DNA from: Deltaproteobacteria bacterium
GTDB lineage: Bacteria; Desulfobacterota; Desulfobulbia; Desulfobulbales; Desulfurivibrionaceae
DNA length: 50,063 nucleotides
Assembly: GCA_021822005.1 (NCBI GenBank)
Contig: JAJZSH010000001.1
Location: 9,592-59,654 of the forward strand
Reading direction: 5' to 3'
Shown here: one piece after another, positions 8,919 to 24,850 of the stretch
Numbering within the stretch: position 1 is the stretch's first letter
Layout of the letters: each line of letters starts with the position of its first letter
Notes under the pieces: model-generated
The model's input: only the letters and a program-made list of their open reading frames with translations
Databases searched by the model: none
What the model was told of the DNA's origin: nothing
Translations under genes and position numbers: made by a program

Positions 8919-9692
8919 ATGCTGCTGGCGGTTGATATCGGCAATACCCACATGGTGATCGGGGTTTTCACCGGATCCACGCTTCGCTGCCACTGGCGGG
9001 TGAAAACCGACAAAGGCAGCACGGTTGATGAACTGGCCGCCATCTTCCACACCCTCTTTGCCATGGAAGGGCTCCGCTTCAACGATATTTCCGACACGAT
9101 CATTTCCAGCGTGGTGCCGGCGATGCAGGCCGCCTGGGCAGCCTTTGCCACCCGATACCTGAACACCGCTCCGCTGGTGGTCGGCTCGGATACGGTGCAG
9201 ACCACCATGCCGGTCCTCCTCGATAACCCCGCGGAAATCGGAGCCGACCGTCTCGTCAATGCCGTGGCGGCCTATGACAGGTTCAAGTGCGCCCTCATTG
9301 TCGTTGATTTCGGCACAGCCATCACCTGGGACTGTGTTTCCGCCACCGGAGAATACCTGGGCGGCGCCATCGCCCCTGGACTGTCCATTGCCATGGAGGC
9401 GTTGGGCAGCCGCACGGCCAAACTGCCCCAGGTTGACATCTCCACCCCGCCTGCCGCCGCCATCGGCACCAATACCGTGGCCGCGATCAAGTCGGGCATC
9501 CTCTTCGGCTATGGCGGCATGGTGGACGGCCTTATCCGGCGCCTGCGGGAGCAGATGGCCCCGGAGCTGCCGCAGGCGGTGGCGACCGGCGGCATGGCCT
9601 TCCTCATCGCCCCGTACACCACAAGCATCGATCATGTTGATCCCATGCTCACCCTCAACGGCCTGCAACTGCTCCATGAACGCAACGCTTAA
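8919..9692 (+). CDS. coaX: type III pantothenate kinase
   Basis: MLLAVDIGNTHMVIGVF...; ADRLVNAVAAY; VVDFGTAITWD; GGAIAPGL. Confidence 0.95.
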   Translation: MLLAVDIGNTHMVIGVFTGSTLRCHWRVKTDKGSTVDELAAIFHTLFAMEGLRFNDISDTIISSVVPAMQAAWAAFATRYLNTAPLVVGSDTVQTTMPVLLDNPAEIGADRLVNAVAAYDRFKCALIVVDFGTAITWDCVSATGEYLGGAIAPGLSIAMEALGSRTAKLPQVDISTPPAAAIGTNTVAAIKSGILFGYGGMVDGLIRRLREQMAPELPQAVATGGMAFLIAPYTTSIDHVDPMLTLNGLQLLHERNA

Positions 9693-10593
9693 GTCCCTCC
9701 TCGCCGCCCCCCTGAAAAAAGGGGATACCATCGGCATCATCGCCCCGGCCGGACCGGTGCGCAACGAAAACGATTTCAGCGCCGGCTTGAAAATTCTCAC
9801 CGATCTGGGATTCAAGGCCAGATACCAAGGCGACATCCTCCGGCACAACGGCTACCTGGCCGGGACCGACCAGGAACGGTTGGCCGAACTGCACGGCCTC
9901 TGGCGCGACCCGGAGGTAAAAGCCATCCTGGCTGTGCGCGGCGGATACGGCTGCCTGCGGCTCCTGCCGGACCTGGACTTCACCCTTATCCGTCAGCAGC
10001 CGAAAATACTCATCGGTTTTTCCGACCTCACCGTCCTGCTCTCCGCAATCCAGCAACAAACCGGGCTCATCACCTTCCACGGCCCCATGCTCACTACCCT
10101 GGCCCGGAGCGACCGCGATTCGCAGGAGGCATTTTTCAATCTGCTCACGGGCCGGTCACGACCGGAGATCAAAATAAAGGGGTTGGAAATCCTCAAAGGA
10201 GGCCAGGCCCGTGGGAGGCTTTTGCCCGGCAACCTGACCAGCCTGGTCCATCTGCTCGGCACCCCCTTTGAGCCGGACTGGCAAAACACCATTCTCGTGC
10301 TGGAAGACATCGGCGAAGCGCCCTACCGCATCGACCGGCTGCTCACCCACCTCTGGGCCGCAGGCCGGCTGGAACAGATCGCCGGGCTTATCCTGGGAGA
10401 CTTTGACCAGTGCGGAGAGCGTGAATCCATCTGGCAGCGGGCGCTGGAGCTGCTGGCCCACCGGCCCATCCCGCTCTGGGCCAACTTCCCCTGCGGCCAT
10501 GGCAGCCGAAACCAGATCCTGCCTCTGGGCGCAGAAGTACGGCTCGACTCCGCCGCCGGCCGTCTTGTTTTTCCGCAGCCCACGGGACGGTAA
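9676..10593 (+). CDS. LD-carboxypeptidase, peptidase S66 family
   Basis: DTIGIIAPAGPV..., AVRGGYGCLRLLPDLDF..., IGFSDLTVLL, HGPM. Start set at ATG 9676, overlapping the coaX 3' end. Confidence 0.9.
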   Translation: MNATLKSLLAAPLKKGDTIGIIAPAGPVRNENDFSAGLKILTDLGFKARYQGDILRHNGYLAGTDQERLAELHGLWRDPEVKAILAVRGGYGCLRLLPDLDFTLIRQQPKILIGFSDLTVLLSAIQQQTGLITFHGPMLTTLARSDRDSQEAFFNLLTGRSRPEIKIKGLEILKGGQARGRLLPGNLTSLVHLLGTPFEPDWQNTILVLEDIGEAPYRIDRLLTHLWAAGRLEQIAGLILGDFDQCGERESIWQRALELLAHRPIPLWANFPCGHGSRNQILPLGAEVRLDSAAGRLVFPQPTGR

Positions 10594-10604: not shown

Positions 10605-10964
10605 TTATCCAGCCAGCACCCGGCTCACCTTCTCTTCCAGCTCGGCCTTGTCAAGCGGCTTCACACAATAGTCGTCGGCCCCCAGCCGCAGGGACTCCCG
10701 GGCGCTTTCCATGGTGGGATAGCCGGTGAGCATGATCACCCGCCCGGCCGGATTTATTTTCTTCAACTCTTCCAACACCTCAACCCCGCTCATTTTTTTA
10801 AGCTTGATATCAAGGATCGCCAGATCAACCGCATTGGTTTGCGCATAATCGAGCGCCTCTTCCTCTTCGGTGAAGGTGGCGATATCATGCCCCTTCTTTT
10901 CCAGGATGCGCCTGATCATGCTCAAGGCGTCCGGCACATCATCCAGCACAAGAATTCTGGCCAT
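10605..10964 (-). CDS. single-domain response regulator (receiver only)
   Basis: MARILVLDDVPDALSMIRRILEKKGHDI...DLAILDIKLKKMSGVEVLEELK...VIMLTGYP...GADDYCVKPLD. Confidence 0.9.
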   Translation of the reverse strand: MARILVLDDVPDALSMIRRILEKKGHDIATFTEEEEALDYAQTNAVDLAILDIKLKKMSGVEVLEELKKINPAGRVIMLTGYPTMESARESLRLGADDYCVKPLDKAELEEKVSRVLAG

Positions 10965-10986
10965 TATGCAGCACTTCTCCTCTCGG

Positions 10987-13023
10987 TCAATTTTTCGGGA
11001 TCCTCTGTTCTTCGTGGCGATACACCGTTGGCAGGTGGACCAGAAAGGCCGCGCCCCTGTTCGTTGTCCTGTCGCAGGCATGGTCGGCCCCGGGAGGACT
11101 TTCAACGGTTATCCGTCCGCCGTGCTCCTGAATAATCCCGTAGCTGACAGATAATCCGAGACCGGTCCCCTTGTCCACCGGTTTTGTCGTGAAAAACGGA
11201 TCAAAAATCCTCCCCTGATCTTCCCTGGGGATACCCTGACCGGTATCGCTCACCGTCATCACCAGGTCGCCGCTCGTGGCATCAAGAAAGGTCGTGATAC
11301 AAATACGGCCGTCTGTACCGATGGCATCGTGCGCGTTGTTGAGCAGATTCACCAGAACCTGCTTGAATTTGTCCCTGTCGCCAAAAAAACCGGGAAGCAA
11401 CGGATCCAGCTGGCATTGTATACTGACCCGATCGAGATTGAAGGTGTGTTCCATAACGGAAACGATCTCCTCGATCACCTCGTTTGGGTCAAAGAAGGAA
11501 TACGTGCTTTCGGACCAGCGCGAAAATTTGAGCAGGTCGGCCACGATTTTTCGGCAGATCTTGCCCTGTCGGTTGATAATCTCAAGATCCTTGTGCCGTT
11601 GATCATCTTCAGGGATCTCTTCGAGAAGCAACTGGGCATAGCCGAGAATGATACCCAGCGGCGTGTTGATCTCATGGGCAACCCCGGCGGCGAGCTGACC
11701 GACCGACTCCATCTTGCGGGCCTGCACCATACGCGCCTCCATTTCCTTGAGCGCCGTGATGTCCCGCCCGCTCCAGAGGATGCCGCTGATCGCGCCCTCC
11801 GGGTTGCGGACCGGCATCCGCACCACGTGACACCATCTGTGGCCCGAGCCGCTCTCGATGGATTCCTGTTTCTCAAGGGGAGTGCCGCTCCGGAGCACCC
11901 CCTTGTTTTCCTCGATATTTCTTCCGGCCCTGTCCGGCGGGTACAGATCATGATCAAACCTGCCGATGATCTCCTCTTCCTCCTTGCCGAGCAGATGACA
12001 GAAAGCCCTGTTCACCGCCTGGTACTTCCCTTGACAATCCTGCAGATACACAAATTCCGGCGTGGCGTCCAGGATGGTTTTCAGCAGCATACGCTGCTCC
12101 CGCATGGTCTTTTCGGCGTCCTCCAGCTCCTGCATTCGTTTTTTCAGGGAGAGCGTCATGTAATCAAAGCTTTCGGCCAGACTCTGAATTTCATCTCCGG
12201 CGGATTTTTTGTACATGGGGCAGTGCCGGCAGGTTTCGATCTTGTTGGCATAATCACCGGCAATGCAGTTGGCGCACAGGGTTCCGGCCAGGTACCAGCA
12301 GCGGTGGTAAAAATTTCCGTAAGCCGGGCACCGGGCTTTGTCGCAGTGCATGACCTCCCAGCAGTTTTTCCTCAGGCTGGGCGCGGTATGGGTGTCCAGA
12401 TCGCCGCGCACCACCTTTTCCGCCGACTGTTGCAACAGCTTGATCCGCCGGGTGACGGAATTGGCCAAAACAGCCCCCATAAATCCTGCCGCCAGGGTCA
12501 CGATGCTGGTAATCAGAAAAGCGATGCGAAGCAGACGTTTGATGGCCGTTTCCACCCTGGTCCTGAGCAGACCGACCCGCACGGTGCCGATCCGCTCCTC
12601 GCCGATGATCACAGGGGCGGCATAATCATAGACCAGTCCCTCGCCGGTATCGAGCAGACGGCTGCTGAATTGCTGATGATTCTCCACCGTGTTGGCGCCT
12701 TTCAGCTCAACGGGGAAACCACCCTTGAAGGTATGAACGAGGATCTCCCCTTCGGTCCCGAGGATGAAACCGTAAGAGATGTCATTGTTCAACAGGGTGA
12801 TCTCATCAACCAGATTCTTCAGGCGCAGGAAGTCGATGGTCAGGATGGGTTCGACAGCCCGGGCCGCCAGGTTGGCGGCGATGGAAATCCCCCGGTTTCT
12901 GTTTTCCTCAAGAAGGGCCTCGCGCATGATCCTGGCAACCATGGAAAAAATCATCACGCTGAAAAAAAACAGCAACAAAAAAAGACCCAGGTAGAGCTTG
13001 CCGCGAAGACCGGATTTCAGCAT
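10987..13023 (-). CDS. membrane sensor histidine kinase (periplasmic domain, split HAMP with Cys-rich insertion, PAS, HisKA, HATPase)
   Basis: Two TM segments; AAGVAHEINTPLGIILGYAQ (H box), LVNLLNNAHDA (N), DTGQGIP (G1), GTGLGLSVSYG (G2). Start at ATG 13023 behind GGGAGAGGA. Confidence 0.93.
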   Translation of the reverse strand: MLKSGLRGKLYLGLFLLLFFFSVMIFSMVARIMREALLEENRNRGISIAANLAARAVEPILTIDFLRLKNLVDEITLLNNDISYGFILGTEGEILVHTFKGGFPVELKGANTVENHQQFSSRLLDTGEGLVYDYAAPVIIGEERIGTVRVGLLRTRVETAIKRLLRIAFLITSIVTLAAGFMGAVLANSVTRRIKLLQQSAEKVVRGDLDTHTAPSLRKNCWEVMHCDKARCPAYGNFYHRCWYLAGTLCANCIAGDYANKIETCRHCPMYKKSAGDEIQSLAESFDYMTLSLKKRMQELEDAEKTMREQRMLLKTILDATPEFVYLQDCQGKYQAVNRAFCHLLGKEEEEIIGRFDHDLYPPDRAGRNIEENKGVLRSGTPLEKQESIESGSGHRWCHVVRMPVRNPEGAISGILWSGRDITALKEMEARMVQARKMESVGQLAAGVAHEINTPLGIILGYAQLLLEEIPEDDQRHKDLEIINRQGKICRKIVADLLKFSRWSESTYSFFDPNEVIEEIVSVMEHTFNLDRVSIQCQLDPLLPGFFGDRDKFKQVLVNLLNNAHDAIGTDGRICITTFLDATSGDLVMTVSDTGQGIPREDQGRIFDPFFTTKPVDKGTGLGLSVSYGIIQEHGGRITVESPPGADHACDRTTNRGAAFLVHLPTVYRHEEQRIPKN

Positions 13024-13037
13024 GGAGTCCTCTCCCG

Positions 13038-13967
13038 TCAATCCAGATGGATGCCGACCTGGGTCACCAGGTTTCTGATCGGGTCATAATCCCGGTCCTG
13101 CGCCGGGACAAAGCCCATGATATGCGCCGCATCCAGGATGCGGCGCTGTTCCTTGTCCGCGGAGGAAAGCTTGAGCAGGGCACTGGCGATGCGGGCCGTC
13201 ACCTCCGGGTCAAGCCCCGCCCTGGCCGAATAGACCCAGCCGGGATACCAGGGGGTGGTGGCGATCACCCGGATCTCGTTCAAATCGATCTTTTCCCCCA
13301 CCACATTCAGGGTGCCTTCCCGGATGGAGCCGATATCGTATTTGCCGGCCCAGACCGCCAGGACCACCTTTTCCTGCTTGCCGCCGGGCCCGGGCGCAAA
13401 GGCGATCTCCGCGAAATCCTCGGGCCGCAGGCCCTGGCTGTAAAAGAGTCCGAGCGCGTACAGGTAGCCGGCGGCGGAGTTCGGATCAACGGCTATCCAG
13501 CGCTTGCCCCGGCAGTCCGCCAGGGTGGCGATGGCGGGGTTGTCCGCCCGACAGATTATCTGCCCCCGGAACCTGCTGCTGCTGTCAGGCCCCTCGACCA
13601 CGGAGGCAAAAACCCTTGAACCGTAACGGTGGGCCAGGGTGACATAAACAAAGGGGTTGACAAAAGAGATATCGATCCTGCCTTGCCCGACCATGTCCAT
13701 GTGCTGATCAAAGGTGTCAGGGAAGACCTGCTTGATATTGTACCCGGTCTCCCGGCGCAGGAAATCCACCAGCAGCCGATGCCGCTCGTAAGAGACGGTG
13801 TGGGAATACTGCGGCAGATAGGCGTAAGTAATGACGTTTACCGGGGCCTTGTGCAGAACCTGTTCCTTTTTCCCCAGGTCCACCTTGACCAGGGCCTCTT
13901 CCTGGTCGCAGCCCGGCAACAGAAGCGCCAGGGATAACCAGATCAGCGGAAGAACTGTTTTCAACAT
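13038..13967 (-). CDS. PhnD-like phosphate/phosphite/phosphonate-type substrate-binding lipoprotein
   Basis: Lipobox LLPGC; RHRLLVDFLRRETGYNI...GRIDISFVNPFVY...; the 404-aa ORF start is too far upstream, internal ATG at 13967 used. Confidence 0.88.
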   Translation of the reverse strand: MLKTVLPLIWLSLALLLPGCDQEEALVKVDLGKKEQVLHKAPVNVITYAYLPQYSHTVSYERHRLLVDFLRRETGYNIKQVFPDTFDQHMDMVGQGRIDISFVNPFVYVTLAHRYGSRVFASVVEGPDSSSRFRGQIICRADNPAIATLADCRGKRWIAVDPNSAAGYLYALGLFYSQGLRPEDFAEIAFAPGPGGKQEKVVLAVWAGKYDIGSIREGTLNVVGEKIDLNEIRVIATTPWYPGWVYSARAGLDPEVTARIASALLKLSSADKEQRRILDAAHIMGFVPAQDRDYDPIRNLVTQVGIHLD

Positions 13968-14037
13968 TGGTTGCCGCTCCTTGGAGGCCGTGGATGGCGC
14001 CGGCCTGCAACCCATTGCCGAGGTCGGCATTTTTTCC

Positions 14038-15096
14038 TCACAGCGAGGAGAGATAATGAAAATAAACCTGGATAAACCTGCCGGAAAGCGCATCATGGCA
14101 AGGAAAAAGCAGCTCGCTTTTTCCGGGAAAAACGCCGGAAAGGGCGAAAAAAACATCTTTCGAAATATTTGAGAGCATCTCCTCAACCAGGGCGGCGTCC
14201 AAGGCCTCCGGCGGAAGCCCCCAGGTACGGCATCGCAGCGGCCGGTGTTCATACAGAAGGCATTTCCCCCCCACAGACAAAGGGCAGAGGAGCTCCTCCG
14301 CCGTGTATATCCGATCGATCTCCTCTTCAGGCCCCGCCGGGGACACCTGCCCCGCTACCAGCCGCAATCTCCGGGAAACCGCCACAGCCCGGTTGATCAC
14401 CTCCTGGCGTTCATTGCTGGTCAGATGCCGGTTGATCCTGTTGTTCAGAAAAACCGCCTCAATGAGCGACATCTCGAAATAATGGCGGCAACAGCCATCG
14501 GAGCCCAAGCCGCAATCGCACGCCGGGCCCGAGCTTCGCGCCGCGGCTGCGGCCTTTTCCTCCACCTCCCGGATCAGGGCCTCGTACTCGGCAAAAAAAA
14601 CACTCAAGTCAACGACATTACGACTTTCCAGGGAGGGCTCCCGAATGCTCAGGGTCCCGGACTTCTTGCCGTATTTTTTCAGAAGCCGCCACTGACTGTA
14701 ATTTGCCGGGGTGGCCCGGCTGTGCCGGAGTTTTTTTTCCGCCACCTTGAGGCCAAGCCCCCGGCGCAGCAGGTAGGCGGAAACAAAGGTGCCGGTGCGG
14801 CCGATGCCGTGCCGGCAGTGCACCAGAATCTTCTTCCCGAGATAGATGGCCTCATCAAGCCAGGCAAGAGCCTGCTCCATTGCCTCGAGATCCGGAGCGC
14901 CTTCATCCGGAATGGGCAGGTAGTACACCTCAAAACCGCTTTGCGCCTCAATCTCGTGCAGATCGCAGAACTCGGCGCAGAGGTTGACGATGGCATCGAT
15001 GCCCATTTCCTTGATGCGATCGAGATCCGTAAAGGACATGGGTGCATAGCCCACCGCCAGTTGGCTGGTTATCCAGGTTATTTCATATGCGGTCAT
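14038..15096 (-). CDS. dual-specificity phosphatase domain fused to CxxCxxCC (YkgJ-like) domain
   Basis: PTP loop VHCRHGIGRTGTF; C-terminal CDCGLGSDGCCRHYF...CPLSVGGKCLLYEHRPLRCRTWG. Confidence 0.85.
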   Translation of the reverse strand: MTAYEITWITSQLAVGYAPMSFTDLDRIKEMGIDAIVNLCAEFCDLHEIEAQSGFEVYYLPIPDEGAPDLEAMEQALAWLDEAIYLGKKILVHCRHGIGRTGTFVSAYLLRRGLGLKVAEKKLRHSRATPANYSQWRLLKKYGKKSGTLSIREPSLESRNVVDLSVFFAEYEALIREVEEKAAAAARSSGPACDCGLGSDGCCRHYFEMSLIEAVFLNNRINRHLTSNERQEVINRAVAVSRRLRLVAGQVSPAGPEEEIDRIYTAEELLCPLSVGGKCLLYEHRPLRCRTWGLPPEALDAALVEEMLSNISKDVFFALSGVFPGKSELLFPCHDALSGRFIQVYFHYLSSL

Positions 15097-15126
15097 GGCG
15101 ATATGCTCGAAGCCTGTTGCCCTTTT

Positions 15127-17607
15127 TTATTGTTGTTTCCGGAAATGATAACGGCCCGCAAGGAAATCATCCGCCAGACGAACAACCATTTCCTCATCTT
15201 TCAACTCCATGTCCAACAGCTTGGTCGCCCCAAGGAGACGACCGACCAGGTCAAGTTTTCCCTGCAACGCATCCCCGGCAAGACCGATCACCCTGGCATC
15301 AAGCAGGTCAGCCTCCCTCTCGACCACAAAGCCAAGGCGCTCCAGAATGCGAGCCAGAAAAGCAACCCGAAGCAGCCGCCCTGCATACTCGCCTCCGCCG
15401 CCGACAAAACGCAGCCCGCAGTAATTTTCCGCAGGGGCGCCGCCGCAGAAGGCGTCGACGATGGTGAAATGATACCCGAATCGGATGTTGATATTCAAGT
15501 AATCCTCCCCGATGATCGCATAGCTCGCCAGGGAGGCGGAATTCGGGCTGGCAATGCCGCCTCCCATGAGAATCGCCTCATATCCCTGCCAGTCGAAGTG
15601 TTGCCGCCCCTCCCATTTGACTCCCGGATGGCTGAGTCCCTGCCAGAGGGCTCGCAGCGGCAGACAGCGCACCTCCGCCGGAGAAACTTTCCTTTTCCCC
15701 GCCGCATCAGGATGCAGCCCTCCGCCGATATCCAGCACAAAGAGTTCAAAAGGCAGATCGGACTTCAGCTGCTGGGCGCAACCTCCCCGGGAAAAACCTC
15801 GGCCGGAGAGAACAAACATCTCCTGCATGGCCTTTTCATGGGAAAAACGGACGATGTCATGCAGGGAGCGACAGGCTTCCGGCCTGAAATCCCGGGCCTG
15901 CGGATCCAACAGACTGAGGGAAGAAACAAGCTCCATCACCGGTTCCAACCGCTTCAGACAGAAAGCGGCGGCCCCTGTGCCGGCAACCCGTTCCGTGAGC
16001 AGTTCCGCCACCCGGCCCGCATAGATCCTGCCTTTTTCCGCGTCAACGGTGATCTCCATGCCGGCGACCAGCGTGTCGATGGCTCCGGGAACCCTGACCA
16101 GCACCGGCACCTCGAATTCCCGGGCAACCGTGGCAAAATGGCAGGCCTGGCTTCCCTGTTCCGCCACTACGGCAGCGAGGCGACCCAGCACCTTGACATA
16201 GGCAGGGGGCGTATCCCTCGCCACCAGCACCGCACCGCCGGGCATGGCCGCCAGAGGGGTGTCCGGGCCGAGGGTGTAGACCCGGCCGCAGGCAACCCCA
16301 CCCGCAGCCTGCTCTCCGCCGGCGAGCAGCAGTGGCGCCGTAATTTGTTCGGCTGCGTCCGGACCGGGGGCAGGGACGACTTGCCGTCTTCCGAGCGGTC
16401 TGGCCTGTAGCACATACAAATATCCTGCCCTGTCCAAACTCCATTCGACATCCTGGGGCGAACCGAAATAGCGTTCCAGTTCTAAGCCCCAACGGAACAA
16501 CTGCAGGGCCTGCGGCTCGGTGAGGAGAGAGACTCCGCCCTGCTGGACGACAACCGGCGTACCTTCCCTGGAAATTCTAAAAACCTCCGGCGCCACCGCG
16601 CCGCTCACCAGGGCCTCTCCCTGTCCCTGCACAGCATGCAGGGTAAGTTCCCTCCCCCGGTTATCGCCCAAATCCCGCACCGCATCGGTGTACATGACCC
16701 CGCCGACCTCGGTCTCGACCATCTCCAACACCAGGACCGACATGGCGGTCTCCGTGTCGGTAAGGCCATAGCGGCTCCGGTAGTAGAGGGCCTCCGGCGC
16801 ATATTTGCTGGCCAGCACCTCTTTGTAGGCCTGAAGGACATCCTCCTGTTCGACGTGGAGCACGGAGCGGTACTGGCCGGCAAAGGAGGCCGCCTCATCC
16901 TCGCCCAGGGCGCTGCTGCGCACCGCAACCCGCACTGGCCGCTCGCGCCGCGCCTCCAGCGCCGCAAGGGCTCCGAGTATTTCAGCGGCAAGAGCCGCCG
17001 GAACCGGAGCCGCCAAGATCAAGGCAGTCAGCCGACCGGAAACCGCCTGGAGACTGTCGAGGGATTCGATGTCCAGTCCGCAGAGAAGATCGTCAATTCT
17101 CGCTCTCAGACCGTTTTCCGCCAGAAAATGATGAAATCCGTTCACGGTGATGGCAAAACCATCGGGCACAGGCAACTGCAGCTGAGTGGCCAGCAAGGCC
17201 AGCGCCCTGGTTTTATGGCCTACTTCAATGGAATTCGCGGGAATGCTGTGCAGGGACAGGATATATGGAGGGGCGGCGCTGGCCGCGGGAGGGGCGAGAA
17301 GAGTCCTAGCCCGGGAGTCAATCCCGTGGAAGGAAAGGCGCAGACTCTCATAGGCGCCTGGGGCCAGACGGCAGAGAGACTCGATCATCTCCTCCACAGC
17401 CCGGGCCAGCTGATCGTAGCGGCGAATAATCCGGCAGAATTCCTCATGACGCCTGCCGTAATAAATCTCCTCAAGTCCGGCCAGCAGATCATGGGCCGCT
17501 TGATCGTGGCGCAGCACTTCCCGGAATGTTTCATATTTTCCCAGCGCCGTCTTTTTTTGCGAGGAAAAACAGGACGTCAAACTCCTGAACAAGGTGCGCA
17601 ATAACAT
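15127..17607 (-). CDS. PEP synthase/PPDK-like phosphotransferase (ATP-grasp plus phospho-His domain) with non-canonical N- and C-terminal regions
   Basis: VAVRSSALGEDEAASFAGQYRSVL; DVEWSLDRAGYLYVLQARPL; VAEQGSQACHFATVAREFEVPVLV (catalytic His). No recognisable PEP-binding TIM barrel. Confidence 0.85.
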   Translation of the reverse strand: MLLRTLFRSLTSCFSSQKKTALGKYETFREVLRHDQAAHDLLAGLEEIYYGRRHEEFCRIIRRYDQLARAVEEMIESLCRLAPGAYESLRLSFHGIDSRARTLLAPPAASAAPPYILSLHSIPANSIEVGHKTRALALLATQLQLPVPDGFAITVNGFHHFLAENGLRARIDDLLCGLDIESLDSLQAVSGRLTALILAAPVPAALAAEILGALAALEARRERPVRVAVRSSALGEDEAASFAGQYRSVLHVEQEDVLQAYKEVLASKYAPEALYYRSRYGLTDTETAMSVLVLEMVETEVGGVMYTDAVRDLGDNRGRELTLHAVQGQGEALVSGAVAPEVFRISREGTPVVVQQGGVSLLTEPQALQLFRWGLELERYFGSPQDVEWSLDRAGYLYVLQARPLGRRQVVPAPGPDAAEQITAPLLLAGGEQAAGGVACGRVYTLGPDTPLAAMPGGAVLVARDTPPAYVKVLGRLAAVVAEQGSQACHFATVAREFEVPVLVRVPGAIDTLVAGMEITVDAEKGRIYAGRVAELLTERVAGTGAAAFCLKRLEPVMELVSSLSLLDPQARDFRPEACRSLHDIVRFSHEKAMQEMFVLSGRGFSRGGCAQQLKSDLPFELFVLDIGGGLHPDAAGKRKVSPAEVRCLPLRALWQGLSHPGVKWEGRQHFDWQGYEAILMGGGIASPNSASLASYAIIGEDYLNINIRFGYHFTIVDAFCGGAPAENYCGLRFVGGGGEYAGRLLRVAFLARILERLGFVVEREADLLDARVIGLAGDALQGKLDLVGRLLGATKLLDMELKDEEMVVRLADDFLAGRYHFRKQQ

Positions 17608-17872: not shown

Positions 17873-18586
17873 TTAACTCCCCAGCAATTCCGCCACCTTG
17901 CCCTGCAACCGCTCGGCCAGCTCCTGCTTCTGCTTGACGGTGTACTCACTGGTGGCAATGGGCGTGCCCACCCGGATCTCCACCCGGCCGGGCCTGACCA
18001 TGAGCCTGCCCTTGGGCAGAACCTGATGGGTGCCGATAATGGCCACCGGCACCACCGGCACCCCGGCCTTGATCGCCAGAACCATGGCCCCGGCCTTGAA
18101 CTGCCCAAGCTTGCCGTCCGGACTTCTGGTGCCCTCGGGAAAGATGATGACCGAGGTGCCGCCGGCAATGCGCCGGGCCGCCTCGTCCAGACTCTGGAGC
18201 GCCTTGCGGCCGTGGGCCCGGTCCACCGGAATATAGCCGGCCAGCTGCATGGCCTTGCCGAATACGGGAATCTTGAACAGCTCCAGCTTGGCCAGCCAGC
18301 GGAAATCACAGCCCAGGTAGCCCTGGAGCACGAAGATGTCAAACTGGCTCTGGTGGTTGGCGGCAAAGATATAGGGGTGCCCCTGCTCAAGAAAATCGAT
18401 CCCGCTCATGCTGACCGAAACCCCGCTGAGCCGGGCAACAATCCTGCCCAGGGCGCGGGGCAGAAACTGAACATCAGCCGCTGACCGCCGGAAGATGAGA
18501 ACCATGATGATGGCCACGATGCTGACCACCCCGGTGAGCATGGGGGCGAGCATCAGAACCAGAACGCCTCGTAATAGAGTAAACAC
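17873..18586 (-). CDS. plsC: 1-acyl-sn-glycerol-3-phosphate acyltransferase
   Basis: AANHQSQFDIFVLQG (HX4D-type N-H-Q-S-X-X-D), FPEGTRSPDGKLGQFKAGA, VPVVPVAI. Confidence 0.93.
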   Translation of the reverse strand: MFTLLRGVLVLMLAPMLTGVVSIVAIIMVLIFRRSAADVQFLPRALGRIVARLSGVSVSMSGIDFLEQGHPYIFAANHQSQFDIFVLQGYLGCDFRWLAKLELFKIPVFGKAMQLAGYIPVDRAHGRKALQSLDEAARRIAGGTSVIIFPEGTRSPDGKLGQFKAGAMVLAIKAGVPVVPVAIIGTHQVLPKGRLMVRPGRVEIRVGTPIATSEYTVKQKQELAERLQGKVAELLGS

Positions 18587-22227: not shown

Positions 22228-24108
22228 CTAAGCCAACATCTTACGGAGCTTGATGGCAAGTTCGCCAGGAGAAAGCGGCTTGCTGATGAAATTGGCGTGC
22301 GTTCGGGAAACGCCGTGTTCCTCGAGCATGGAATCGGTGTAGCCCGACATGAACAACACCCGTATCCGGGGATCAGCCGCCTGCACCCTGGCGGCCAGCC
22401 CGTGCCCGGTCATCCCCGGCATGACCACGTCGGTCAGCATGAGGTCGATCTTTTCTCCGCCCCCTTCAACAAGGAGCAAGGCCTCCCCGGCGGATGCCGC
22501 CGCAAGCACGGTATAGCCCATGGCCTCCAGGGAATGACGGACAACGGCGAGTATTTCCGGCTCATCGTCAACCACGAGAATGGTCTCGCTCCCCTGCAAT
22601 ACCTCCAGGGCCGCGCCGGTCACCGCGGCCTCCACCGGAGCCTCCACCTTGGGGAAATACAGGCGGAAGACAGTTCCCTTGCCAGGCTCGCTCTGAACCA
22701 CGATATAGCCGCTGTGCTGCTTGACAATGCCGTAGGCCGTGGCCAGCCCAAGGCCCGTTCCCTTGCCCTGGGCCTTGGTGGTGAAAAAAGGTTCGAAAAT
22801 ATGCTCCTGCACCTCCTTGGCCATGCCTTCCCCGGTGTCACTCACCACAAGGACCACGTACCGCCCCGGCGCGATATTGTCAAAATTGGAAAATTCGTTC
22901 TTCTCCAGAACCTCCTCGATACAGGAAATGGTCAAAACACCCCCGTCCGCCATGGCGTCCCGCGCGTTGATGGCCAGATTCAGCAACACCTGCTCGATCT
23001 GGTGCTGGTCGGCAAGAATCCTGCCCTGTCCGCCGGGCGCGACCTCCACCGTAAAATGAATGCCGGGCTGGATAAGGCGCCGGATCATGGCGCTTAAACC
23101 CGAGACAACGCTGTTCAAGTCGATAACCCGGACATCAACAACCTGATGCCGGCTGAAGGTAAGCAGCTGGCGGGTCAGGGCCGCCCCCCTGATTCCGGCG
23201 TCACGGATGGAGCGCAGGGCGTCCGCCAGAGGGTCGCTGTCCGGCAGACGCCTCAGATACAGCTCGCTGTAGCTTAAAATCGTGGTGAGAAGGTTGTTGA
23301 AATCGTGGGCCACGCCGCTGGTCAGCCGCCCGATGGCCTCCAGCTTCTGGGATTGCAGCAATTGGGCCTGCAACCTTTTTTCCTCGCTGACGTTCCGGAA
23401 AATACAGCGGGCAAACTGGGGCTTGCCGTTTTCGTACCGGCAGTTGACCGCGCCCTGGATCATGATCTTGTCGCCGTTTTTCGCGACAAAGGTCGTTTCG
23501 ATCCTGTCGGTCCGTCCATGCTCCAGAACATGCTGGAAGATCTCCATGCAGTGATCCGTGCAGTCCGGGTCGATGAGATCAAAGATGGTAAGCTGCTCGA
23601 CCTCTTCCGCCGAATAGCCAAAGGTGGCCCGCCAGGCCGGGTTGACCAGGAGAAATCTCCCGTCCGGCCAGACGAACTGAATGAGATCGCTGGCGCTTTC
23701 AAAAAGATCGCGGTATTGCTCCCCGCTTTCCCGCAGGGCCGTTTCCATGCGCTTGCGCCCGGTGATATCCCGGACAAAGGCGCAGATATAGTCGGTCGCG
23801 CCAAGGGTGACGCAGACCGCGTCGACTTCTTTCTGGACAATCTGTCCGCTCTTTGTCCGATGGGTGGTCTCAAGCTGCAAGCCGCCCTGCCTTTTCCACT
23901 CGGGCCAGAGCTGCCTGAGCCTGGAACCAAGATCGGGGTCAATATCGGCAAGGCTTAAGGCAAGAAGCTCCGCCTCGGAATAGCCAAGGTTTCTGGCCGC
24001 GGCCTGATTCACATAAGCAAACCCGCCCTCGGCGTTGATCAGATAAAACTCCACGTTTGCCGCATCGACAACGCGCTTGAATACTGTGTTCAATTCCTGA
24101 TTATCCAC
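22228..24108 (-). CDS. hybrid histidine kinase, PAS-PAS-HisKA-HATPase-REC
   Basis: [50 protein letters not shown]-terminal [10 protein letters not shown]...[11 protein letters not shown]. Start uncertain (GTG 24108 or upstream). Confidence 0.88.
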
Positions 24109-24241
24109 GCTGCATCCGACTTTCTTGCTCCATTGATAATACCCTGACCGGGAGGGGATCAGCTTGCCATTTCCCCAGCAGGATGTGCATCTTTTCGTGA
24201 AGCAGCAGGCATAAGCCCGCCGGCCCGACAAAGCCCTTTTC

Positions 24242-24850
24242 TCAGCCCTTGGCCCGGATGAGCGCCTCAAGCTCCCGCCAGTCCACGGAACTTTGCCGAC
24301 AGTTGCAGTCCTTGAGCAGACACACCTGGGGAATCACCTTAAGTCCATGCCCTCCCAGCGAGCCCTCCGGCGAGACATTGGCGGAGCGCAGATATTTCTC
24401 CCGCAGGTCACGGGTGCACAGGCAGCCCACCACCGCTCGCGGCCGGCGCTGCCCGATCTGACGCACCAGAAAATCCCGGCTGCGCAGCACCCCATCCTTC
24501 TTATGCAGCCTGCCGCTCACCACCACAAAAACATCCCGGTAGCCCAAGGCCAAAGCCATCTCCCGCATCTCCCGCAGACGGCAGGGAATGCGGCAACCGG
24601 TCGGGCACAACAACCCCTTTTCCCGGTCGATAGCCGTGGCGCACCCTTCGGCCCGCAAGCAGTAGGGCAGAAAAAGCATCCTTTCGGCATAGGGTGTCCG
24701 GACAAACCTCTGCTGAAAGAAGCGGTTCCCCGCCGCCACGACCTTGCGGACATAGGCATCCTTGTCCATTTTCGGAAAAACCCGGGCCAGGGGCCTGTAG
24801 AAAAAAACCAGAACGGGAAGGGTAAGCCAGGAAGGAAGGGATAGTGTCAT
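24242..24850 (-). CDS. DUF116 family protein
   Basis: LFLPYCLRAEGCATAIDREKGLLCPTGCRIPCRL...VGCLCTRDLREK...KVIPQVCLLKDCNCRQSSVDW. Confidence 0.85.
   Translation of the reverse strand: MTLSLPSWLTLPVLVFFYRPLARVFPKMDKDAYVRKVVAAGNRFFQQRFVRTPYAERMLFLPYCLRAEGCATAIDREKGLLCPTGCRIPCRLREMREMALALGYRDVFVVVSGRLHKKDGVLRSRDFLVRQIGQRRPRAVVGCLCTRDLREKYLRSANVSPEGSLGGHGLKVIPQVCLLKDCNCRQSSVDWRELEALIRAKG

Follow-up and report, generated by a model that had tools for sequence, protein, structure and literature searches.

A conserved five-gene cluster of Desulfobacterota related to the Desulfovibrio nitrate cluster, with a candidate oxyanion-sensing system beside a PPDK-like phosphotransferase/phosphatase pair

In the present study, we analyzed a stretch of desulfobacterotal DNA of 50,063 nucleotides (the window). 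A minus-strand run from 17607 to 10605 consisted of five co-directional genes separated by gaps of 30, 70, 14 and 22 nt. The ORF calls confirmed this layout as originally predicted, and domain matches likewise bore out the predicted PPDK-like protein, PhnD-like lipoprotein, histidine kinase and lone receiver. The genes and the features within them were as follows:

15127-17607, minus strand: gene of a candidate PPDK-like His-phosphotransferase, 826 aa, with an N-terminal helical domain (residues ~15-105), an ATP-grasp domain, PPDK_N (residues 128-404), and a phospho-His domain (residues 456-526) with H490 as predicted catalytic residue
16138..16140, minus strand: codon of the predicted phospho-acceptor H490, an invariant alignment column
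15130..15987, minus strand: C-terminal domain of the PPDK-like protein, residues 541-826 (~285), in place of the PEP/pyruvate barrel
14038-15096, minus strand: gene of a dual-specificity-type phosphatase, 352 aa, with a DSPc match
14797-14820, minus strand: phosphatase P-loop HCRHGIGR (HCxxxxxR)
13038-13967, minus strand: gene of a PhnD/PtxB-family lipoprotein (solute-binding protein), 309 aa, start ATG at 13967
10987-13023, minus strand: histidine kinase gene, 678 aa
12214..12363, minus strand: two-CW domain of the kinase (NCBIfam NF045718, 41.4 bits, cut-off 35)
10605-10964, minus strand: stand-alone receiver gene, 119 aa, with a Response_reg match

Judged by the spacing, a single transcript for the five genes is likely. 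A promoter/terminator scan gave 9 promoter-like sites versus 2.5 in shuffles, but the sites were scattered; thus, the scan was uninformative on the operon question. The flanking genes are unrelated to the cluster: an acyltransferase gene (17873-18586) lies upstream, and the downstream side has an ORF for a type III pantothenate kinase (8919-9692) and, after it, another plus-strand ORF that ends at 10593 and is convergent with the cluster. No ABC genes were found among the five cluster genes and the acyltransferase and pantothenate kinase flanks. It was also observed that a hybrid histidine kinase-receiver gene overlaps a DUF116 gene at 22228-24850, 4.6 kb upstream of the cluster.

The lipoprotein matched Phosphonate-bd (5.3e-61) and carried a lipobox (LLPGC, Cys20); Cys20 and the pocket-region motifs YLPQY, NPF and SAxG were conserved in sets of 27 and 48 homologues. 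Its closest solved structures were PtxB, HtxB, ArrX and AioX. The histidine kinase exhibited a TM-sCache_3_2-TM-HAMP-two-CW-PAS-HisKA-HATPase_c architecture, with conserved H450 and N, G1 and G2 boxes. The kinase had been described at the outset as Cys-rich, and the Cys-rich insert was identified as the two-CW domain, whose eight Cys residues (C221, C227, C232, C242, C250, C253, C265 and C268) were at least 93% conserved in 46 kinases. The receiver (Response_reg, 1.2e-27) contained the full set of catalytic residues (D8, D9, D52, T80 and K102) and had no output domain. It belonged to a discrete subfamily, with at least 51% identity versus at most 42% for other full-length receivers among the matches listed.

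The PPDK-like protein matched PPDK_N (2.8e-67) and PEP-utilizers (7.5e-18), and it gave no match to PEP-utilizers_C, the PEP/pyruvate barrel. In an alignment of 29 PPDK-like homologues, paralogues included, K132, R230, E388, Q401, R403 and H490 were invariant or nearly so; homology with PEP synthase and PPDK indicates H490 as the predicted phospho-acceptor. The C-terminal domain yielded no Pfam or NCBIfam family match, nothing significant in a PDB sequence-profile search, and no match in a plasmid collection. The AlphaFold model of this domain was confident (mean pLDDT 88.6), and its comparison with the PDB by Foldseek revealed no convincing fold match (best E 0.026). The Foldseek hits were weak, for example DR_1245 (E 0.04, TM about 0.3), and were not interpreted as homologues. 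The full-length model matched PEP synthase, rifampin phosphotransferase and PPDK (best E 2.5e-22). These three enzymes have the ATP-grasp and phospho-His domains and conserved residues in common with the PPDK-like protein; unlike them, it has an extra N-terminal helical domain and an unrelated C-terminal domain where the acceptor domain would be. This replacement of the barrel is among the new points of the analysis. At two other loci (L051 and L080), the PPDK-like proteins reached about 1070-1080 aa, exceeding that of the window by some 240 residues, and the adjoining phosphatases were 71-75% identical to the window phosphatase.

The second gene had been described as a phosphatase-YkgJ fusion. 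The phosphatase part was upheld by the DSPc match (9.7e-14), whereas the YkgJ label is weak, as Pfam CxxCxxCC (PF03692) had no match in the window protein and weak matches in 6 of 28 relatives, with a best E of 0.002. Across 28 homologues, C94, R100 and the general acid D64 were invariant, as were C203, C271, C279 and C289 of the Cys-rich C-terminal domain. Bacterial dual-specificity phosphatases such as ShufPTP (9e9l) have the CX5R P-loop and the general acid in common with the window phosphatase. Unlike phosphatases of the ShufPTP type, the window phosphatase is fused to a Cys-rich C-terminal domain, and its family occurs in a near-obligate gene pair with the PPDK-like gene.

The five genes did not prove unlinked in relatives, the outcome named by the original prediction as counting against it. 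In Desulfobacterota, all five were found together at 38 of 123 phosphatase loci, a count that takes in a few organisms twice (L121/L191, L122/L193), so that the distinct loci are slightly fewer. Four gene orders were observed (HK, kinase; RR, receiver; PTP, phosphatase): PhnD-HK-RR-PPDK-PTP (21 loci), PPDK-PTP facing PhnD-HK-RR (13 loci), the window order PPDK-PTP-PhnD-HK-RR (3 loci besides the window), and PPDK-PhnD-HK-RR-PTP (1 locus). The PPDK-like gene lay directly upstream of the phosphatase gene in 89 of the 95 loci examined, and in 30 loci the PPDK gene came immediately after the receiver gene, at a median distance of 21 nt. The phosphatase was present in 33 of 97 genomes of the window's order, in 42 of 395 genomes of the phylum sample, and in 135 of 247 genomes of the class around genome G363, which was taken as Desulfovibrionia from gene content. 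Since the five-gene unit recurs in dozens of genera, the clustering exceeds chance, and the five genes form a real, conserved and functionally linked set. Loci without PhnD-HK often carried another kinase/sigma-54 regulator set. Among 43 long-flank loci, 19 had the PhnD-HK module, 15 had the other sensor set (a sigma-54 response regulator and/or the kinase 'c5'), and 1 had both (Fisher p = 0.0003), a near-exclusion that is partly phylogenetic. On the receiver tree, which was built on few columns, the PhnD-type label changed 11 times, compared with 26.1 times in shuffles, none of the 500 shuffles reaching so low a number, a kind of count that near-copies inflate; the window receiver grouped with the PhnD-type receivers. 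The phylum-wide spread and the differing sensor sets are new points on the cluster. Two more PPDK-phosphatase pairs were seen on short contigs of the window genome (L078 and L079; C131 and C213); as contamination of the assembly is rated at 6.9%, another organism may be the source of these pairs.

The genomic context of the PPDK-like family was then related to TauE/SafE permeases. Twelve near-complete genomes contained 41 genes with the PPDK C-terminal domain, of which 26 lay within 10 kb of a TauE/SafE gene, compared with a mean of 1.5 and a maximum of 7 for random positions in 2,000 draws, the 26 of 41 being non-independent because of tandem paralogues. This linkage of the whole PPDK-like family, paralogues included, is a new point. 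On the 60-kb contig of the window cluster (C313), no TauE match was found. Elsewhere in the window genome, at three loci of PPDK paralogues, the gene rows TauE-Alph_Pro_TM-PPDK-RR (C70, L039), TauE-Alph_Pro_TM-PPDK with the PPDK gene cut by the contig end (C12, L043), and HK-RR-TauE-x-PPDK-RR (C287) were present; a sigma-54 regulator gene was observed near the two rows containing Alph_Pro_TM (PF09608). Related loci also carried a molybdopterin oxidoreductase whose best NCBIfam match, the thiosulfate reductase PhsA, fell below the curated cut-off (3.1e-176), accompanied by a ferredoxin gene. A second locus in the window's genus (L240 at 13-19 kb, L241 and L242; C99 and C24 of the window genome) contained no PPDK or phosphatase gene. 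It comprised the kinase 'c5' divergent from a sigma-54 regulator, TauE split into two genes, a lone receiver with 66-69% identity to the window receiver, and the PhsA-like oxidoreductase with ferredoxin.

The original prediction did not recognize this gene combination as a named system, and a precedent was found in Desulfovibrio. Korte et al. (2014) described a poorly annotated 'nitrate cluster' (DVU0251-DVU0245 / Dde_0597-0605) containing a TauE permease, a hypothetical protein, a PtxB-like lipoprotein, a histidine kinase, a lone receiver (360 bp), a PPDK/PEP-utilising protein and a tyrosine/dual-specificity phosphatase (PMC4001038). The same five families as in the window are thus present together with TauE. 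The kinase is of the HAMP-PAS type in both, the receiver is CheY-like, and DVU0247 and its window counterpart are genes of equal length. The two clusters differ in gene order (PhnD-HK-RR-PPDK-PTP versus PPDK-PTP-PhnD-HK-RR) and in the TauE/SafE and DVU0250-type genes, which are part of the nitrate cluster and unlinked in the window. In addition, DVU0246 (2235 bp) is shorter than the PPDK-like homologues found here, and the kinase DVU0248 is called a pseudogene in D. vulgaris Hildenborough (DvH). Genomes of the class around G363 exhibited the order TauE-(x)-PhnD-HK-RR-PPDK-PTP, as in DVU0251-0245, with TauE beside many Desulfovibrionia copies, and a Desulfonatronum locus (L157) had the order PhnD-HK-RR-PPDK-PTP. 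Based on the published annotations, family content, order and gene lengths, the five window genes are a rearranged relative of the nitrate cluster.

Loss of function of the nitrate cluster has been shown to confer nitrate resistance in DvH and D. alaskensis G20 (PMC4001038). Transposon mutants in DVU0246, DVU0247, DVU0250 and DVU0251 grew equally with or without 100 mM nitrate, whereas the DVU0245 phosphatase mutant was still inhibited by nitrate (PMC4001038). The phosphatase mutants differed, with fitness of -6.04 in DvH and +2.08 in G20 (PMC4001038); as the value in G20 is positive, the phosphatase result is inconsistent between strains. Korte et al. suggested a leaky thiosulfate transporter, cited unpublished data in which G20 cluster mutants were mildly sick on thiosulfate, and stated that the roles of the cluster were not obvious (PMC4001038). 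A later paper cites the mutants as affecting putative thiosulfate transporters (PMC9723548). Price et al. (2014) did not discuss the nitrate cluster, and the literature yielded no biochemistry for any cluster member. The present survey makes this ten-year-old phenotype directly testable, and the domains to focus on are the His-phosphotransferase with its novel C-terminal domain and the partner phosphatase. Dosing with nitrate serves to control souring, and one route by which Desulfovibrio escapes this treatment is the loss of nitrate-cluster genes.

Previous studies have reported related sensor systems. AioX-AioS is a precedent for a PhnD-like periplasmic protein signalling to a kinase (PMC5908839). 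The AioX-AioS-AioR, ArrX and ArxX systems combine a PhnD-like periplasmic protein with a kinase and a response regulator, and in the window the PhnD-like gene similarly adjoins the kinase and receiver genes. Those systems often lie beside a molybdoenzyme, and the DNA site bound by AioR is located upstream of an RpoN promoter, whereas the window receiver stands alone and the window has the PPDK-like/phosphatase pair. PhnD-like domains also serve TtrS and ThsS in the detection of tetrathionate and thiosulfate (PMC5408782). In TtrS/TtrR and ThsS/ThsR, the domain that senses these sulfur oxyanions lies inside the kinase, whereas in the window it forms a lipoprotein of its own, encoded next to a kinase that contains sCache and two-CW domains.

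Collectively, we lean toward the interpretation that the cluster encodes an oxyanion-sensing three-component system, probably for a sulfur oxyanion, that feeds a His-phosphotransferase/phosphatase pair. The periplasmic lipoprotein would bind an oxyanion, with thiosulfate or another sulfur oxyanion as the most likely ligand, and in its ligand-bound form would signal to the two-CW histidine kinase in the manner proposed for AioX and AioS; phosphorylation of the lone receiver by this kinase would follow. Because it has no DNA-binding domain, the receiver would work through protein contact. Two findings make the PPDK-like protein the leading candidate for its target: the receiver lacks an output domain, and in 30 loci the PPDK gene comes right after the receiver gene. 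The PPDK-like protein would charge H490 from ATP and hand the phosphate on to an acceptor that its C-terminal domain selects, and the adjoining phosphatase would remove or limit the phosphate passed on, a predicted role of this kinase-like/phosphatase pair as the output arm that is plausible. The outcome may be control of anion uptake or use via TauE-type permeases and PhsA-like reductases, which are linked in other genomes and unlinked in the window. The five-gene linkage in four orders, the tracking of sensor type by the receiver, and the invariant catalytic residues support the integrated sensing and phosphotransfer module first proposed.

The PhnD-HK-receiver and PPDK-phosphatase genes might instead be independent units that serve the same transporter without direct receiver-PPDK contact. 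We consider this possible, although rather unlikely. It would agree with the occurrence of PPDK-phosphatase pairs with the different sensor set, and of the receiver subfamily with TauE and a PhsA-like gene where PPDK and phosphatase are missing, but the receiver gene lies immediately 5' of PPDK in 30 loci at short distance, and the DvH receiver and PPDK mutants were alike nitrate-resistant. A bolder form of the coupled reading would be a new class of receiver-coupled phosphotransferase. A stand-alone receiver would act on a phospho-His protein that is charged by ATP and carries a novel acceptor domain; this protein would phosphorylate a TauE-type permease or some other protein, and the paired tyrosine-type phosphatase would undo the modification. 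This proposal is speculative and, in our estimation, unlikely; if true, sulfate reducers would control their anion transport at the post-translational level.

As for the ligand class, a sulfur oxyanion is more likely than phosphate or phosphonate, given the TauE and PhsA-like neighbors, the thiosulfate phenotype, and the use of PhnD-like domains by TtrS and ThsS. Sensing of a phosphorus oxyanion (phosphate, phosphite or phosphonate), in which case the PPDK-like protein and the phosphatase would act on a phosphorylated metabolite, appears improbable. The best PDB relatives of the lipoprotein, PtxB and HtxB, do bind phosphite and phosphonate; however, its family also takes in arsenic-oxyanion sensors, the thiosulfate and tetrathionate sensors have PhnD-like domains, and the recurrent neighbors were TauE and PhsA-like oxidoreductases, with no ABC permease or Phn gene among the neighbor families examined at related loci. 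A phosphonate operon was therefore not favored.

It is very improbable that the PPDK-like protein is an ordinary PEP synthase/PPDK of carbon metabolism merely lying beside a two-component system. Its ATP-grasp and His domains matched PpsA with E values of about 1e-71 to 1e-75, and it retains the active residues, but the scores were far under the equivalog cut-offs (252.9 versus 598; 240.9 versus 739.75), the barrel is missing, the C-terminus has no PDB sequence match, and multi-copy PPDK-like paralogues are found with receivers and TauE. The identity as an ordinary PpsA was rejected on the missing barrel and the low scores. No evidence was found to favor chance adjacency of five unrelated genes, which is practically negligible in view of the linkage at 38 loci in four gene orders and many families.

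Several minor observations were made at related loci. At L225 and L231, a PhnD-HK fusion (Rosetta stone) was considered and rejected, as the extra N-terminus of the kinase was not alignable with PhnD and resembled, in composition, a shadow frame that overlies the PhnD gene. One stretch of the window genome (L042, C328) contained three PPDK-like paralogues together with MshEN/DUF202 proteins, histidine kinases and receivers. At L055 and L070, small membrane proteins (m209/m211) with weak similarity to EMC3/TMCO1 (E about 0.001) were recurrently encoded beside TauE and PPDK genes.
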